Origin: Lachnospiraceae bacterium
Lineage (GTDB): Bacteria > Bacillota > Clostridia > Lachnospirales > Lachnospiraceae
Length of the DNA: 64,000 bases
Direction of reading: 5' to 3'
NCBI GenBank assembly: GCA_022647575.1
Contig: JALCKY010000005.1
Coordinates: 1-64,000, forward strand
Each line of letters starts with the position of its first letter. Position 1 is the stretch's first letter. The notes under the pieces are model-generated. The model was given only the letters and a program-made list of their open reading frames with translations. It made no database searches and had not been told where the DNA came from. The position numbers and the translations under genes are program-made. Below are positions 38,953 to 46,960 of the stretch, in pieces.

Positions 38953-38998
38953 ATCTGTTTTATTGTTTTACTGTTTACTGTTCCACTGTTTTACTGTC
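38953..38998. repeat. Short AT-rich tandem units after the YfhO gene
   Basis: Imperfect repeats of TTTTACTGT / TTTACTGT in the space between the terminator and the YfhO stop. Low complexity; no obvious coding. Confidence 0.5.
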
Positions 38999-41324
38999 CG
39001 GCTTCTGCGATTTTTCGTGCCGCTGCCGATTTCTTCTTTCTTTTCCGTGCAATCACCAGATATACGGCAGTCAGGAATGCGCAGCCGGCCGAGCACAGGA
39101 TTCCGGTGTTGAGTCCCGGCACCTTATAGGTGAATTCAATGTCATTTGTTCCGGCGCTGATCGGAACGGCCATGAAGCCGTTAATGTCGATGATTTCCGT
39201 AGCCTTGCCGTTCACGGTCGCACTCCAGCCGGAGTCATCCGGAATGGAATAGAAGGCATAGGTGTCCTTTGCCGCCGTGATCGTTGAGCCGAAGGAGGAA
39301 GTGGTCTCGTGGAAATCCTGCGAGCATTCCTTCAGATGGTCGCCGCTGATTTCCTTCAGATAGGCTGTTGTCGCCTCTCCGTCCGTCGTCTCGTCGTAAT
39401 GGCGCAGCACCTGGGAAACCGCAGCTTCCTGATCATCGGGAATGACCAGCGTCTTCAGCATCAGAATGGTCCGGTACGCCATGTTCGTCTCGCCGAATTC
39501 CGTCTCCGTCATGTACGTGTCATAAGTGAATCCGATCGGCGGAACATTGTCGTCTTTATAGACATAGTAAGTGGTATAGTCCCCTTTCACCACCTGAACG
39601 GCATCTTCATTTTCCCGCTCCTCGGTTTCAAAAGTATAGGCCGCGGAAACCAGATTGGCCAGTCCGTCCGGCGCATCCGGACTCTTCACGTCTCTGGAAA
39701 GCCCGAGTGAGGTGTAGAAACGGAAAATGGAACCGGAAACCGTACTGCAGAAATTCGCTTCCGTCGGCAGTCCGTTCGTGAGCGTTTCCGTATTGTCGCG
39801 GTTGGTCCAGCGGTACTCCGGGGTCGTATATTCGATTTTTTTGGAAGTCATCAGGCGGTCGTAGATATGGCGCGCGTCTTCTCCGTGGGCAATCTGATAC
39901 AGGAGAACGGCCCCCGCCGTCGTGCCGATGCAGAACGTGTAAATCAGGATGCAGGCAGCGATGGTCCTTCTCTTCCCCATCCTGCAGAAAATCAGATAGG
40001 TCAGCAGGATTCCCCCGAGACAGACGGCCGTCCACACGCTGAAGACATCATAGCGGTAAATGATGCGGTCCGTCTTATCGCTCCATTTCGCAAACAGAAG
40101 GAAGCAGACGAATCCGACGGCAATGAGTCCGTAAATGATAGAGGCCTTCCGGATCGATTTCTGGATCGGCGTCGGAGACATCAGCGTTTCCTGTTCGCTG
40201 TCCCAGCGGTCCATCACCAGGGCGGAAGCCAGCGCCATCATCAGGATCGGCATGTAATACCAGCGGCAGTACACGCCCGCAAAAAGCGAGAACGCCGCAT
40301 TGAGGATCGGGACAAGCGCCATGACAAGACAGATCTTCAGCATTTTCGTCAGCCAGTGCTTCTTGTTGTAAAGGGCAAAGGCTATGACAAGGACAAGCCC
40401 GACCATCGGCAGGTAGGCATTGCAGGTCGAGAAATTATTGCGGATGACGCAGGACTGGTCGGACATGACTTCGCCCGGGAACAGCACGCCCTTCAGGATG
40501 TAGAGGTAGCGGTCGGCGTTGTAGAGAATGGCCGCGCTTCCTGTATAGTCGCTCTCCACACGGGGGTTCTGGATTGTGAAGACAAACGCCGGCACGAGGA
40601 GCAGCGCCCCGAGTCCGCAGCCCAGAATTCCTTCCCAGGCCGCCTTGCGCATCCTCCGGAATCCCTGCTTCACATTCGGGAACATGTAGCGGACGAAGAA
40701 ATAGATCGCCAGGAAAATAATCTCGCCGATGATGAAGAAATAATTGACGACGGCATTGATGCAGGTCGCAAAAATGAACGGTCCTCTTCTGTCCTTCGTC
40801 ATGAGGTCGTCAAAGGTCAGCATCATCAGCGGGAACAGAAGGACGACATCGTGGAAATGGTAGAAAAGAAGCGCCTCGGCGCTGAAGCCCGAGAAAGCAT
40901 ACAGCATGCTTGCGATCACCGCATATTCCTTCCGCTCGACGTAGCGGCTCATGTATGCGTAGGAAGTCATGCCGGCAAAGGCATATTTCAGGACATAGAG
41001 CCAGCCGACGATATACATGAAATACTTGGACGGGAAAAGCAGCGAGACCCAGAAGGACGGATTGCCCAGGATGTAGAAGGCCATGCCGCCGATGAAATTG
41101 GACCCAAGGTCAAGCGAATAATCCCAGATGACATTTCCGGACTTGATGGCATCATTGGCATACATCGCAAAGGGAATCTGCTGGACATTGAAGTCGCCTG
41201 CCAGTGAGAAAAGTCCGCCCTGATCGATGATCGTCCAGGAAAAGGCAAAAATGCCTGCCAGGAGATTGATCAGGAATGCATATAACAGATAATTCGGCTG
41301 TTTCTTGTTTTTAATCATTTCCAT
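38991..41324 (-). CDS. YfhO family membrane protein
   Basis: A 777-residue polytopic protein with about 13 hydrophobic helices, a long central extracellular region and a C-terminal beta-rich domain ending YSIPDDSGWSATVNGKATEI ... GTNDIEFTYKVPGLNTGI. This matches the GT-C-fold YfhO family. Family members in Bacillota add sugars to lipoteichoic acid or handle other polyprenyl-linked sugars. The N-terminal half has WTIIDQGGLFSLAGDFNVQQIPF, typical of the family. It follows the channel-like gene by 53 bases on the same strand. RBS GAAGGACAG. Confidence 0.88.
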   Translation of the reverse strand: MEMIKNKKQPNYLLYAFLINLLAGIFAFSWTIIDQGGLFSLAGDFNVQQIPFAMYANDAIKSGNVIWDYSLDLGSNFIGGMAFYILGNPSFWVSLLFPSKYFMYIVGWLYVLKYAFAGMTSYAYMSRYVERKEYAVIASMLYAFSGFSAEALLFYHFHDVVLLFPLMMLTFDDLMTKDRRGPFIFATCINAVVNYFFIIGEIIFLAIYFFVRYMFPNVKQGFRRMRKAAWEGILGCGLGALLLVPAFVFTIQNPRVESDYTGSAAILYNADRYLYILKGVLFPGEVMSDQSCVIRNNFSTCNAYLPMVGLVLVIAFALYNKKHWLTKMLKICLVMALVPILNAAFSLFAGVYCRWYYMPILMMALASALVMDRWDSEQETLMSPTPIQKSIRKASIIYGLIAVGFVCFLLFAKWSDKTDRIIYRYDVFSVWTAVCLGGILLTYLIFCRMGKRRTIAACILIYTFCIGTTAGAVLLYQIAHGEDARHIYDRLMTSKKIEYTTPEYRWTNRDNTETLTNGLPTEANFCSTVSGSIFRFYTSLGLSRDVKSPDAPDGLANLVSAAYTFETEERENEDAVQVVKGDYTTYYVYKDDNVPPIGFTYDTYMTETEFGETNMAYRTILMLKTLVIPDDQEAAVSQVLRHYDETTDGEATTAYLKEISGDHLKECSQDFHETTSSFGSTITAAKDTYAFYSIPDDSGWSATVNGKATEIIDINGFMAVPISAGTNDIEFTYKVPGLNTGILCSAGCAFLTAVYLVIARKRKKKSAAARKIAEAGQ

Positions 41325-41377: not shown

Positions 41378-42514
41378 TCAGAATTTATAGGCCGAAACCG
41401 GCAGTACGATGTTGCCGACGACGACAAAGGCAAGTTCCGTGATGAACATGAGCCGGCCGAATTTCTTCGCGAACTCACGGTCCTCATATTTGCTCCGGAT
41501 GCGGTTGATCATGATAATGGTAATGGCCGTCGTCAGGATCGTGGCGATTCCGAAGAAATTCATTTCCAGAAGCAGCCCCTGCTGCATGGATGGCACTTTG
41601 TTTGCGCCGACCATGATGTTGGCCACGGCGCCGAACAGGGCGGCAGGGATCATGCCCAGAGGATCGACGCGGTGGTAGGTGCAGATGAATAGCGTGATCA
41701 TCGCCCAGGTCATCGTGCCGAACATGGCGATGAAGCACATCAGATAGAGGGAAAAACCGGTCCGGTTGATTTCAATCTGCGTCATGTGTTCGGATATATA
41801 GAGATAGCCGGTATCCTTCAGGGCTTCCGGATTTCCCAGGGAAGAATCGTATTTATAGTCCAGGGCTTCCGTCGCGGAGCGCAGCACCTTAAAACCGGCC
41901 ACTTCGAGATTCGGATTGAGGGTGCTGGCGTCCGTATCCGCCTTGAAGACCACTTCGCTGACGTTGTAGGCGCACTGCAGATACATGCGGAGCTGATGGG
42001 ATTCCAGCGGAAAACGCACCGTCCAGAAAGCCTTGGAAATCGTTGTATCCAGGGAAACCAGCTGATAGTTGCTGTCCCCGTCATGAATATCCTCGATGAC
42101 CTGAAGATGATTGATCGTGCCTTTATAAACGCCGAAATTGTGAGCCATGTCCAGATCCTTGCTCCCCTGCCAGCGGAACCAGACCTCGGCAACCACTTCA
42201 AAATCAGAATCATCCAGATTCATGTCCTTCAGATCCGTAATGTACGTACCGACCGTCACGGTGACCGGACTGGACTCCCCGACGATCTTCTGCACCTGGG
42301 CTTCCGTTTCCGCATCCGGCTTCAGTGCAGATTCCCAGTAGCCTTCCTCCGCATTCTTGTCGCGGATCAGGCCTATGCAGGAAATCAGAAGAAAACCGCC
42401 GACCGCCGCGATATAGATGATAAAAGCGGCCAGCATCATCCGGATATGCTTCGGCGTAAGATGTCCGGTTGCATTTTCCGATCCTGCCGGGATCTCTTTC
42501 TTCTCTTCTGCCAT
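41378..42514 (-). CDS. Probable pentameric ligand-gated ion channel homologue with an extra N-terminal membrane helix
   Basis: Residues 84-250 read like the extracellular beta-sandwich of bacterial Cys-loop-family channels: VTVTVGTYITDLKDMNLDDS, then FEVVAEVWFRW, and the Pro-loop RFPLESHQLRMYLQ at 167-180 (family pattern F/Y-P-x-D/E-x-Q). Residues 248-375 give four helices with family-like joins: IEINRTGFSLYLMCFIAMF (M1), PLGMIPAALFGAVANIMVGANKVP (M2 with the Pro of the M2-M3 loop), LEMNFFGIATILTTAITIIM (M3), and a final M4. An additional helix at 27-50 precedes the sandwich, where known members have a cleaved signal. No Cys-loop cysteine pair, as in other prokaryotic members. A DUF4436-like membrane protein is the main alternative. 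Ligand unknown. Confidence 0.6.
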   Translation of the reverse strand: MAEEKKEIPAGSENATGHLTPKHIRMMLAAFIIYIAAVGGFLLISCIGLIRDKNAEEGYWESALKPDAETEAQVQKIVGESSPVTVTVGTYITDLKDMNLDDSDFEVVAEVWFRWQGSKDLDMAHNFGVYKGTINHLQVIEDIHDGDSNYQLVSLDTTISKAFWTVRFPLESHQLRMYLQCAYNVSEVVFKADTDASTLNPNLEVAGFKVLRSATEALDYKYDSSLGNPEALKDTGYLYISEHMTQIEINRTGFSLYLMCFIAMFGTMTWAMITLFICTYHRVDPLGMIPAALFGAVANIMVGANKVPSMQQGLLLEMNFFGIATILTTAITIIMINRIRSKYEDREFAKKFGRLMFITELAFVVVGNIVLPVSAYKF

Positions 42515-42542: not shown

Positions 42543-43946
42543 TTAATTCGAAACAAAGAAATCAGCGATTGCCGGAAGCATCTGCTGATTTTCCTCCCAG
42601 ATCAGAGGGAATTCAGAAATGTCCAGCGGCGGATCATTGTAGCTTCCGTCATCCTTGAATTTCCTTCCGACCTCGATGGTCAGCGCCGGTATCTGTACAA
42701 TCTGCATATAGTAGTCGCTGCATCCGCCCGGATTCTGGGAATCCTGGACCGTTGAAAGCAGCTCATAGGCGTCATGTCCCTCCTGGGCAGTCAGCGGATC
42801 CAAAGCCTTCGCCAGGGCATAATCCCGGTTATAGAGGTCTTCGTTGACGCTCTGCATTCCGTAATCGTAATAAATGCTTCTGCCGTGACAGTGGTACGCG
42901 ATCTCGCACACGGTGTTCATGGATTCCGTCAGGGAAATGAGTGCCTGGACCTCCGGCTCCGAATTGGCGCTGGTTCCCGGATAGCGGCTGCAGGAAGGCT
43001 GCTGCGTTCCCATCTCCGTCGTCCATCCGGTCGTCGCGAAGTTGCGGTTCAGATCGACCGACCGTGCATTTGCTTTCCATGTCAGCCAGTATTCATCGAC
43101 GTTGGTGCTTCCTTTTCCCAGCTTGAGATCGCTCTGATAGACGGACAGCAGGTTCGCCTTCAGCGTCTCGTCACGGATGGCATCGATTCCTTTTTCCGAA
43201 ATCATCACGCCGTCCGGATTGATCATCGGAATGATATGAAGGCGGACCGTCTTGAATAATTCGCTGCAGGCTGTTCCGTTGTACTGCGCCGTCGAGTAAT
43301 TCGAAAGGAGATTCTCCAGCTGCTTCATGGCCAGCAGCGTGCAGATATACTCGCGCGCATGCATGGAATACTGGATCACGATATCCTTCGTGGCTCCCGC
43401 ATCTCCTACCACGGCCTCCAGGAGATCTCTCTTGTCCAGGCTTTCCCCGAATTTCCTGACCTGGACGAGACCTGAATATTTTTTCTGAAGAAGATAAAGA
43501 TCTTCTTCCATTTGATCATACGTATAGACGACATTGTCCGTCGCAACGATGTCTCCGTCCGGGACGGCTGCATCGGAAGTATATGTCCAGGCCGCGGAAT
43601 CATCGTAAGAAACCTTGGAGGAATCCGAGACATCCGCGGAGGAGGAAGAAGAATCTGCCTTCGATGAATCAGCGGAAGCCGCAGCGGATGCAGAAGATTC
43701 CGTTCCGGAAGAGACCGTGCCTGCCGCTGATGATGCATCCGAAACAGCAGCCGCGGAATCCGCAGCCGTTTTCTTTCCGCCGGCGCCTTTCATCACCAGA
43801 AACACGATCAGCGATCCCGCCACGACCAGACAGGCTGTCAGAATGATACGCGAAATAAGGCGCCTTCTCTTCCTGCGCCTGATTGCCCTCATGCGTGCCT
43901 CCCGCCTTTTCAGGTATGCCCTGTCATCACGGTTTTCAGACATCAT
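42543..43946 (-). CDS. Membrane-anchored M14 zinc carboxypeptidase
   Basis: A 467-residue protein with a basic cytoplasmic tail, one transmembrane helix (about 31-52), a Ser/Ala/Asp-rich linker (60-120) and an external M14 peptidase domain. Zinc ligands and catalytic residues are visible: QYSMHAREY (His196, Glu199), VDLNRNF (substrate Arg), IAYHCHG (third ligand His) and PALTIEVG (catalytic Glu). Substrate is unknown; wall peptides are possible, since the domain faces outside. It lies 28 bases upstream of the channel-like gene on the same strand and has a promoter of its own. Confidence 0.9.
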   Translation of the reverse strand: MMSENRDDRAYLKRREARMRAIRRRKRRRLISRIILTACLVVAGSLIVFLVMKGAGGKKTAADSAAAVSDASSAAGTVSSGTESSASAAASADSSKADSSSSSADVSDSSKVSYDDSAAWTYTSDAAVPDGDIVATDNVVYTYDQMEEDLYLLQKKYSGLVQVRKFGESLDKRDLLEAVVGDAGATKDIVIQYSMHAREYICTLLAMKQLENLLSNYSTAQYNGTACSELFKTVRLHIIPMINPDGVMISEKGIDAIRDETLKANLLSVYQSDLKLGKGSTNVDEYWLTWKANARSVDLNRNFATTGWTTEMGTQQPSCSRYPGTSANSEPEVQALISLTESMNTVCEIAYHCHGRSIYYDYGMQSVNEDLYNRDYALAKALDPLTAQEGHDAYELLSTVQDSQNPGGCSDYYMQIVQIPALTIEVGRKFKDDGSYNDPPLDISEFPLIWEENQQMLPAIADFFVSN

Positions 43947-44034: not shown

Positions 44035-44988
44035 TTAGACCGGCACGTAATTATCCGGAAGCACCTCGCCCCAGGGCGTCCCTCCCAGGTCAAAGGGCGT
44101 CGACTGATAGACGTAGTAATTGAGCCAGTTCGTATAAAGATTGTTGGCATTGGAGCGCCATTTCAGCAGCGGCCGTTCATTCGGGTCGTCATTCGGGAAA
44201 TAATTCACCGGAATCTCTATCGGAAGACCTTTCTTCAGGTCTCTTTCATATTCCCTCTTCAGCTGCGACCTTCCGTATTCCGGATGCCCCATGACAAAAA
44301 TCTTCCGTCCGTTCTCTGCCATCGCCAGGTAGACGCCGGCTTCATCGGACTGCGCCATGATCGTCAGGCTGCTGCATTTCTCAATATCTTCCACGGACAC
44401 TTCCGTGTGCCGGGAATGCGGAGCCAGAAAGAGATCATCGAAGCCTCGCACCAGCGGCACCTTGCGGTTGTACAGCCTGTGCCAGTAGAGGCCGAACATC
44501 TTCTTGTCCAGTTTCCGCTTGGGAAGCCCGTAGTAGTAATACATGGCGGCCTGTGCCCCCCAGCACAGATACATCGTGGAAGTCACGTGATGCTCGCACC
44601 AGTCGAAAACACCCTTCAGTTCTTCCCAGTAATCGACTTCCTCGAACTCCATCTCTTCGACCGGCGCGCCGGTAATGATGCAGCCGTCGAAATGCTTTCC
44701 CTTCAGTTCATCGAAAGTCTCATAGAAAGAATCCAGGTGGCTCTTCGACGTATGCCTGGAAATATGGCTGGACATCCTCATGAAACGGCAGTCGATCTGC
44801 AGCGGCGTATTGGAAAGCATGCGCAGGATCTGGAGCTCCGTATCCTCCTTGAGAGGCATGAGGTTCAGGATGACGATCTGAATCGGGCGGATATCCTGAT
44901 GGACAGCCCTGTCCTCATCCATGACGAAAATATTCTCTTTTTCCAGTATTTCCCTGACCGGCAGGTCATTCTTCAGCTTAATCGGCAT
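44035..44988 (-). CDS. metAA: Homoserine O-acetyltransferase (MetA family)
   Basis: It activates homoserine for methionine synthesis. The 317-residue protein has the MetA/HTS class I glutamine-amidotransferase-like fold: Cys142 in TMYLCWGAQ, His235 and Glu237 in VMGHPEYG. Residue 111 is Glu (GAPVEEMEF) where the succinyl enzyme of E. coli has Gly; published work links Glu111 to acetyl-CoA use. So I call it an acetyltransferase, although MetA is named for succinyl transfer. The ATG is 11 bases inside the ligA 3' end, so it is coupled to ligA. Confidence 0.92.
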   Translation of the reverse strand: MPIKLKNDLPVREILEKENIFVMDEDRAVHQDIRPIQIVILNLMPLKEDTELQILRMLSNTPLQIDCRFMRMSSHISRHTSKSHLDSFYETFDELKGKHFDGCIITGAPVEEMEFEEVDYWEELKGVFDWCEHHVTSTMYLCWGAQAAMYYYYGLPKRKLDKKMFGLYWHRLYNRKVPLVRGFDDLFLAPHSRHTEVSVEDIEKCSSLTIMAQSDEAGVYLAMAENGRKIFVMGHPEYGRSQLKREYERDLKKGLPIEIPVNYFPNDDPNERPLLKWRSNANNLYTNWLNYYVYQSTPFDLGGTPWGEVLPDNYVPV

Positions 44989-46960
44989 TTTTTATCATCT
45001 CCAGAAATTCATTTTCCGTTATGACCGGGATTCCCAGTTTCCTGGCGGTCCGGTTCTTGGCTGAGCTGCTCATGCTGTCGTTGTTTATGAGATATCCTGT
45101 CTTCTCCGAAACGGACCCGACAACCTTGCCTCCCTTTTCTTCAATCAGGTTCTGAAGTTCTCTCCTGTTTGCGAAATGTTCCAGAGAGCCGGTAATGACG
45201 AAAGTCTTCCCCTCCAGCGGGCGGTCGCCTCCCGTCTCTTCCTTTTCGATCGTAATGACTTCCAGCAGATGCTCCAGCACTTTCTGGTTTTCCTCACTGC
45301 GGAAATAATCAACCAGGGACCCGGCAATGACCGGCCCGATCGATCCGATGGCTGACAGCTCCTCCGCATCCGCCGAACGCAGCGCGCTGAGATCCCCGCG
45401 GTATGTGCGGGACAGCAGCTTCGCATTGGCCAGGCCGACGTTCGGAATCCCGAGTCCGTAAAGCAGGCGGGTCAGATTCGTTTTCGAAGCTTTAGCCAGG
45501 CTTTTCTCAAGGTTTACATAAGATTGTTCACCGAAGCCGTCCATCTCCGTGATTTCTTTCCTGTGCTGCGGGAGGCGGAAGATATCGGCAAACTCATGGA
45601 TGAAGCCGGCGGCGATCATCTTCTCAAGCGTCGCTTCGGAAAGGCCGTCGATGTTCAGGGCATCCCTGCTCACAAAAAGATCGAATCTGCGGATCTTCTT
45701 GGCCTGGCACTCCGGATTCATGCAGTGAAGCGTCAGGACATCCGAACCGCCCTCGGTCCGGTCGCTCTCGCGGATGATCTTTGTCTGGCCGCCGCAGACC
45801 GGACATTTTTCCGGAATCGGAAGATTTCCGCTCTTCGTCAGATCTTCCGCAATCTGCGGAATGATCATGTTCGCCTTATAGACCGTAATCGTGTCGCCGA
45901 TCCCGAGCTTCATTTCCCTAAGGATGCTGATGTTATGCACCGAAGCCCTGCGGACGGTCGTGCCTTCCAGCTCGACCGGATCAAAAACCGCAACCGGGTT
46001 GATCAGGCCCGTGCGCGACGGACTCCATTCAATGCTTCGCAGCGTCGTCTGCGCCAGTTCGTCCTTCCACTTGAAAGCAAAGGCGTTGCGGGGAAACTTG
46101 GCTGTCTGCCCGAGCGACTCTCCGTAGGCAATGTCGTCATAGAGGGCGACAAGCCCATCGGAAGGAAAATCATTATGGACAATCTGTTCCGAAAACCATC
46201 TGACGGCATCGGGAACTTCCGCTGCCGTAACCGTTTTGTATTCCACCACGGTGAAACCCTGCTGCCCAAGCCAGCGGAACTGCTCTTCCCGCGAATTGCG
46301 GAAATCGACTCCGTCCGCCCGGACGAGGGCAAATGCAAAGAAATAGACGCACCTCTGCGCCGTCACTTCCGAATTGAGCTGGCGGACGGATCCGGAGCAG
46401 AGATTGCGCGGATTCTTGTAGCGGGCGCCGACGTCTTCGATCTCGTCATTGATCCGGCTGAAATCGGAATAGCGGATGATGGCTTCCCCGCGCAGGATCA
46501 GCTGTCCCTGATAGGGAATTCTGACCGGAATATTGCGGAAGACTCTGGCGTTGGGTGTCACGACTTCCCCGACGATTCCGTTTCCGCGGGTCACAGCCTT
46601 TGAAAGCGTGCCGTTTTCATAAGTCAGCACGATGGTCAGCCCGTCCATTTTCCAGGACAGAAGGCTTTTATGATCCCCGACGAATTCCGCCAGGACTCCG
46701 ATGTCCTTGGTCTTGTCAAGGGAAAGCATCGGCCTTTCATGGGTTTCCTTCGGCAGTGAATCGCGGATCTCGTAGCCGACATGGGCAGTCGGAGAATCCG
46801 CCAGAACGATGCCTGTACTCTTTTCGAGTCCCTCGAGTTCCGCATAGAGCCTGTCGTATTCCAGGTTGCTCATGATCTCGCGGTCTTCGTTATAATAGGC
46901 ACGTCCCGCCTGATTCAGGATCCCGACCAGTTCTTTCATTCTGTCATTGGCTTCAGGCAT
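44978..46960 (-). CDS. ligA: NAD-dependent DNA ligase
   Basis: It seals nicks in DNA with NAD. The 660-residue protein from MPEANDRMKELVGIL has the nucleotidyltransferase domain with the adenylated Lys104 in SWKMDGLT (classical members have ELKxDG), a zinc finger (CPVCGGQTKI ... LHCMNPECQAKKI), HhH repeats (LYGLGIPNVGLANAKLL; LSAIGSIGPVIAGSLVDYF) and a C-terminal BRCT domain (LEGKTFVITGSLEHFANRRELQ). Start at 46960, with GGAGGGAAACG upstream, overlaps the pseudouridine synthase stop by eight bases. An in-frame ATG at 46993 would overlap more. The motif-I variation suggests a divergent LigA branch. Confidence 0.93.
   Translation of the reverse strand: MPEANDRMKELVGILNQAGRAYYNEDREIMSNLEYDRLYAELEGLEKSTGIVLADSPTAHVGYEIRDSLPKETHERPMLSLDKTKDIGVLAEFVGDHKSLLSWKMDGLTIVLTYENGTLSKAVTRGNGIVGEVVTPNARVFRNIPVRIPYQGQLILRGEAIIRYSDFSRINDEIEDVGARYKNPRNLCSGSVRQLNSEVTAQRCVYFFAFALVRADGVDFRNSREEQFRWLGQQGFTVVEYKTVTAAEVPDAVRWFSEQIVHNDFPSDGLVALYDDIAYGESLGQTAKFPRNAFAFKWKDELAQTTLRSIEWSPSRTGLINPVAVFDPVELEGTTVRRASVHNISILREMKLGIGDTITVYKANMIIPQIAEDLTKSGNLPIPEKCPVCGGQTKIIRESDRTEGGSDVLTLHCMNPECQAKKIRRFDLFVSRDALNIDGLSEATLEKMIAAGFIHEFADIFRLPQHRKEITEMDGFGEQSYVNLEKSLAKASKTNLTRLLYGLGIPNVGLANAKLLSRTYRGDLSALRSADAEELSAIGSIGPVIAGSLVDYFRSEENQKVLEHLLEVITIEKEETGGDRPLEGKTFVITGSLEHFANRRELQNLIEEKGGKVVGSVSEKTGYLINNDSMSSSAKNRTARKLGIPVITENEFLEMIKNAD

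Follow-up and report, generated by a model that had tools for sequence, protein, structure and literature searches.

A 64,000-nucleotide (nt) stretch of a Lachnospiraceae bacterium genome (GenBank assembly GCA_022647575.1, contig JALCKY010000005.1, positions 1 to 64,000; hereafter the window) carries at 41378..42514, on the minus strand, a gene whose product is supported, by sequence comparison and a predicted model, as a homologue of the pentameric ligand-gated ion channel (pLGIC) superfamily. The protein (P0001) starts with an extra membrane helix, and many relatives have next to the gene, as recurrent neighbours, genes for a K+ channel and for a protein resembling the S component of energy-coupling factor (ECF) transporters. 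These partner genes are a finding added to the initial annotation of the stretch, which had proposed the pLGIC homology and the extra helix, and their association hints at the role of such bacterial receptors. P0001 probably acts as a homopentameric ligand-gated channel with an uncleaved N-terminal helix, working together with the K+ channel and the ECF-S-like protein. The features of the gene are as follows.

41378..42514, minus strand: pLGIC (Pro-loop receptor) subunit gene, an intact open reading frame (ORF) of 378 codons (378 amino acids, aa) with an ATG start, assigned by fold and profiles.
42326..42454, minus strand: extra N-terminal helix, residues 21-63 (hydropathy peak 32-50), from the predicted model and hydropathy.
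42272..42313, minus strand: second N-terminal helix, residues 68-81, running into strand beta1 in the predicted model.
41765..42265, minus strand: extracellular beta-sandwich, residues 84-250, with the Pro loop F168-P169-L170-E171, from the predicted model and alignment.
41762..41764, minus strand: pre-M1 arginine R251, invariant in the alignment (26/26 rows).
41675..41755, minus strand: M1, residues 254-280, with A263 at the site of Pro in most pLGICs, from the predicted model and alignment.
41597..41662, minus strand: M2 pore helix, residues 285-306, with D284 immediately N-terminal and F294 at 9', from the predicted model and alignment.
41489..41575, minus strand: M3, residues 314-342, from the predicted model.
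41387..41479, minus strand: M4, residues 346-376, from the predicted model.

The predicted single-chain model consists of a beta-sandwich extracellular domain followed by the four transmembrane helices of the pLGIC fold, and hydropathy gives five membrane segments (32-50, 260-278, 286-304, 318-336, and 355-373). The proposed homology is borne out by this fold and by profile comparison: the modeled monomer contains the beta-sandwich and the four-helix bundle, and profile searches returned no best match to an unrelated membrane family. DUF4436 (PF14494), a family suggested for checking, was rejected, being absent from the matches of P0001 and from the window's genome. The translation contains the beta strand quoted in the initial annotation, the IEINRTGF segment preceding M1, and the proline between M2 and M3. 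The Pro-loop pattern given in that annotation, F-P-x-E-x-Q-x-L, was correct as to the presence of the motif and inexact in spacing; residues 168-175 read F-P-L-E-S-H-Q-L, with Q at P+5 and not P+4. The Pfam models Neur_chan_LBD and Neur_chan_memb did not match P0001 at E values up to 10, and at E up to 1 they matched 4 and 2 of the 26 aligned members, respectively. Remote pLGIC members can fail these models, and a match is not a residue-level criterion. The PDB search with the single sequence matched zero chains.

A scan of GTDB genomes yielded 34 loci (L015-L048), mostly from Clostridia. Residues were compared in alignment A6, with 26 rows (the window and 25 of the 34 loci, omitting the near-copies L020, L024, L029, and L030, the broken or shortened L038, L039, L041, and L042, and the partial L047), and in A7, with 18 rows (additionally omitting L032-L034 and five remote rows). 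Several rows are cut N-terminally (L003 in alignment A5; L015 in A7; L027 in A6 and A7; L028 and L016 in A9), and prime numbers are ungapped counts back from P308. The Pro-loop proline is listed as the sole absolutely conserved pLGIC residue (PMC4795631 Table 1); the same source gives the pre-M1 arginine in 94% and the M2-M3 proline in 88% of pLGICs, and the beta9 aromatic as W in 71%, F in 16%, and Y in 11%. In the present group, P169 and P308 are invariant (26/26), and the beta9 position, F208 by profile alignment, holds F, Y, or W in every row of A6. D284 at -1' and F294 at 9' are invariant in A7 (18/18). Of the eleven segments compared, the M1-M2 turn (84.3%) and M2 (80.8%) have the highest mean pairwise identity; M1 and M3 have 63-64%, M4 has 45.5%, and the extracellular domain 43.7%. 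Because the identity of M2 and of the turn exceeds that of the other segments, the pore is the part under the strongest constraint, consistent with a conducting channel, and the aspartate at -1' suggests cation selectivity by analogy with animal channels.

The ORF is not a chance one: another species of the genus has a relative at 64% identity, another genus has one at 47%, and homologues occupy the 34 loci. The gene is rare, being present (the window's genome counted) in 2 of 100 sampled genomes of the family, a common gut family, 2 of 42 of the genus, and 11 of 392 of the order. The phylum-wide search of 398 genomes gave a credible match in the window's own genome only, and a second match (E 9.3e-4) was taken as spurious, having seven stop codons. 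The scan included Lachnospiraceae bacterium UBA1066 (L015), which belongs to the window's genus and appears to be the same genome as the genus-mate with a pLGIC, the K+ channel occupying one and the same contig position in the two. Loci outside Clostridia came from Enterococcus devriesei and from Acidaminococcaceae and Eggerthellaceae metagenome-assembled genomes (MAGs), and remote loci from Myxococcales, Planctomycetaceae, Betaproteobacteria, Sterolibacterium, and Roseomonas. No relative was detected in viral contigs by single-sequence or alignment search. Eight plasmid records matched (seven of Azospirillum and one of Streptomyces), and the three inspected were remote pLGICs with a short linker, not of the anchored type described below. 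Tandem pLGIC gene pairs, which could permit mixed pentamers, were observed in Myxococcales MAGs at L044:4805-6870, where the copies are 28% identical, and L043:5836-7700, where the second copy is in another frame. Broken or shortened copies occur in MAGs at L039:5974-6792, L042:6001-6555, L041:6103-6714, and L038:6043-6756; those of L039 and L042 lack, in frame, a part that begins inside M1 and ends with M3. Partner genes remain beside the broken copies, for which assembly error and real decay are indistinguishable.

The extra N-terminal helix was recovered both by hydropathy and in the model and is common to the whole group. In 23 anchored rows (all 21 Bacillota and Actinomycetota rows, the window included, and the planctomycete and Roseomonas rows), the hydrophobic segment is followed by 32-45 residues before beta1. 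The corresponding linker of the six other remote members, labelled as signal-peptide type, has 6-9 residues in four and 36 in L043; the length in L046 is unreliable, with beta1 placed too early and extra residues in the row. When the tree was computed on the sequence starting at beta1, a branch supported at 100/98 separated the 23 anchored rows from the others, several remote branches being long and the deep order unsure. Conservation is 30% in the juxtamembrane residues 51-63 and 11% in residues 1-20. Of the 23 rows, 19 have a higher net charge N-terminal than C-terminal of the helix, three are tied, and one shows the opposite; this bias fits an N-terminus inside. From these sequence features we infer that the helix is retained as a membrane anchor. 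The N-terminus of a pLGIC is located at the top of its extracellular domain, so an anchor in the same membrane must climb along that domain. Helices 21-63 and 68-81 would be about long enough to span from the membrane to the apex, as estimated from the modeled helix lengths and the general dimensions of pLGICs. It is unlikely that P0001 is instead a pLGIC like GLIC or ELIC whose N-terminal helix is an ordinary cleaved signal peptide, leaving no extra anchor. A single N-terminal hydrophobic helix can always act as a signal sequence, P0001 has a lipobox-like L-I-S-C at 43-46, and the linker and helix at 64-81 are poorly conserved (16%). However, L-I-S-C is, on reading by eye, not repeated in the other 25 alignment rows, and L015 and L027 carry long open frames upstream of the helix. 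Cleavage is also opposed by the long linker, kept in 23 of 23 anchored rows as against 6-9 residues in four of six remote ones, and by the better conservation of residues 51-63 than of 1-20.

The K+ channel gene adjoins the pLGIC gene at 21 loci, in addition to a shortened channel in L039, and 4-nt gene overlaps occur in several loci. The Ion_trans family (PF00520) was matched above the cut-off by the three linked channels scanned and by the channel of the window's genome. The K+ selectivity filter was recognized by the pattern T[TV]VG[YF]G and reads TTVGYGD in six aligned channels and in that of the window's genome. The fold test returned the S-component fold for the ECF-S-like partner. The copy of the window's genome is below the PF12822 cut-off (25.9 vs. 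30.7 bits), and three other copies score 46, 53, and 17 bits against the CD3073 family of putative ECF S components (NF045596), far under its curated cut-off of 180 bits. In the window's genome, the channel gene (C2:45833-46579) and the ECF-S-like gene (44953-45549) lie side by side on another contig than the pLGIC gene, and the genus-mate possessing a pLGIC carries the same pair. On contig C2 the pair is followed by a gene for a 160-aa small membrane protein (L051:4479-4961, minus strand), which precedes thymidylate synthase-like and dihydrofolate reductase-like ORFs (named by eye). At L023:7764-9074, in Ohessyouella, the K+ channel and the ECF-S-like protein share one open frame of 437 codons, a possible fusion.

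The S4 segment contains 2-5 basic residues per 17-residue window in all 26 partner-type channels, with 2 in the window's genome and its genus-mate, and 6 in all 18 placeable other channels (12 others were unplaced). This reduced S4 charge suggests a weaker dependence on voltage in partner-type channels, weakest in the window's genome and the genus-mate. Two K+ channels, L053 and L054, come from genus-mates with no detected pLGIC and have no ECF-S-like neighbour in the stretch fetched; S4 of L053 keeps all six charges.

Among the 42 genomes of the genus, only the two with a pLGIC have a single match to the channel profile above 300 bits. The next genome, G125, reaches 283 bits with a channel from another branch of the channel tree, and G119, the source of L054, holds two copies with split matches (183 + 120 and 175 + 119 bits), so that its true score may be close. 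Of the 392 genomes in the order, the best 11 for the channel profile and the best 11 for the ECF-S-like profile are in both cases exactly those that have a pLGIC; both profiles were built from pLGIC-linked genes, so most of these scores are partly built in and few are independent, and the scoring covered part of the candidates in many genomes. Two Anaerostipes genomes with a pLGIC hold the partner pair elsewhere in the genome. The channel tree included 55 of 57 distinct domains (at least 200 residues), among them channels beside broken pLGIC copies, and its contrast group of 29 rows contains L096, L098, and L099, which are actually from pLGIC genomes (G905 and G907). In this tree, 26 partner-type channels cluster with two from order genomes lacking a pLGIC (support 95/89), and a single origin of the partner-type channels is possible from these sequences. 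At 15 other channel loci, the flanks fetched, roughly 1.5 kb per side, contain no ECF-S-like gene.

There is a small chance that the partners are uncoupled neighbours, separate membrane genes that share an operon in Clostridia by chance. Linkage to the K+ channel is missing in the window's genus, Anaerostipes, E. devriesei, and Acidaminococcaceae, and many of the linked loci come from one MAG set (isolates named Lapin) and are not independent. On the other side, the pair is retained in the same genomes even when unlinked, the partner-type channels largely cluster in the tree, and the genes overlap in several loci.

Together, the receptor channel, the K+ channel, and the small-molecule-binding fold are most plausibly interpreted as a unit for chemical-to-electrical conversion or ion homeostasis. 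In the model that we infer, subunits with an uncleaved N-terminal helix would cross the membrane five times, with the N-terminus inside and the C-terminus outside, and would assemble as a pentamer. An extracellular small molecule would bind the beta-sandwich and open the M2 pore, which would pass probably cations, given the conserved Asp just N-terminal of M2. Opening would shift the membrane potential or the cation balance; in Clostridia, the dedicated K+ channel may answer or reset this change, and the S-component-like protein may supply or sense the small ligand. A more specific version for Clostridia is tentative and rather doubtful: a ligand-triggered electrical switch in which the N-terminal helix of a five-pass pLGIC serves as a membrane-to-apex strut, the S-like protein captures and presents the ligand, and the K+ channel has a worn-down voltage sensor.

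Several observations weigh against the proposed conducting, partner-coupled receptor. As a single sequence, P0001 matched no channel family in Pfam or NCBIfam. The acid at Pro+2, D in 93% and E in 3% of pLGICs (PMC4795631), is represented by E171 in P0001; A7 has E in 10 of its 18 rows and D in 3, and in a subgroup of 5 the acid is replaced by G. The 14' proline of M1 and the basic residue at M2 0' occur in 77% and 79% of pLGICs, respectively, and hence are not universal (PMC4795631); their sites hold A263 (A in 18/18 rows of A7; P in 1/26 of A6) and the non-basic P285 (P in 17 and A in 1 of 18). The low conservation of residues 64-81 and the partly built-in profile scores belong here as well. 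The partner channel is missing from E. devriesei (44 bits), the Acidaminococcaceae MAG (no match), and the Eggerthellaceae MAG (264 bits, outside the group), for which the best ECF-S matches are 57 bits, 58 bits, and none, respectively. A non-conducting sensor with the pLGIC fold, passing a ligand-induced change by contact to its K+ channel or S-like partner, would also suit the absence of the M1 proline and of the basic residue at 0', the absence of the Pro-loop acid in the subgroup, and the tight gene linkage to another channel. Such a sensor is quite unlikely, since M2 and the M1-M2 turn are the best-conserved segments and a dead pore would have no obvious need of this.

The neighbours of the pLGIC gene in the window are as follows.

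42543..43946, minus strand: M14 carboxypeptidase-like protein, upstream neighbour (PF00246, 4.5e-33), separated by a 28-nt gap and also upstream in L015.
38991..41324, minus strand: YfhO family membrane protein, downstream neighbour (PF09586, 6.5e-68), separated by a 53-nt gap.

Both had been named in the initial annotation as lying on the same strand, which these matches confirm. YfhO adjoins the pLGIC gene only in the window among 35 neighbourhoods and is not beside the L015 homologue. The accompanying speculation that products of the M14 peptidase are the ligand is very unlikely: the peptidase gene is close, on the same strand, and upstream in L015 as well, but its cluster is confined to the window and L015 among the 35 neighbourhoods, and these two share the genus and a further upstream gene (cluster c19), so the arrangement may be plain synteny. 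M14 was set aside as a functional partner, the neighbour being restricted to the genus. A scan for promoters and terminators gave 4 promoter-like sites vs. 3.0 in shuffles and 5 terminator-like sites vs. 2.1, counts that do not define the transcript.

To our knowledge, the purpose of neurotransmitter-receptor-type channels in bacteria is largely open. Earlier gene-context work proposed a chemotaxis-receptor role (PMC549065). In the available passages of that work (Tasneem et al. 2004), prokaryotic pLGICs are described as starting with a signal peptide, which in some is separated from the channel by PBP-I, MCP-N, or Cache domains, and some have PBP-II or Cache genes as neighbours; they share with the present group the extracellular beta domain and four helices, and these passages name no K+ channel or ECF-S neighbour. 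Among the open-licence literature matches listed, the titles and abstract openings include no pLGIC with an N-terminal membrane helix or such neighbours. DeCLIC is likewise described as a bacterial pLGIC with an N-terminal addition, which is a modulatory domain there and a predicted membrane helix here. Animal Cys-loop receptors (GABA-A beta3 and GluCl) are about 10% identical to the window protein, which has no cysteines around the Pro loop at the animal positions. A subfamily whose companions are a K+ channel and a protein of small-molecule-binding fold offers a concrete, testable setting for bacterial receptor function, and a five-pass subunit, if true, would be an unusual topology for this textbook family. 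GLIC, the proton-gated pLGIC of Gloeobacter, is reportedly modulated by short-chain carboxylates (PMC10859675). Compared with GLIC, the subfamily has the extra N-terminal helix and the 32-45 residue linker, lacks the M1 proline and the basic 0' residue, has E, or G in some relatives, where the Pro loop of GLIC has D, and is accompanied by K+ channel and ECF-S partners.
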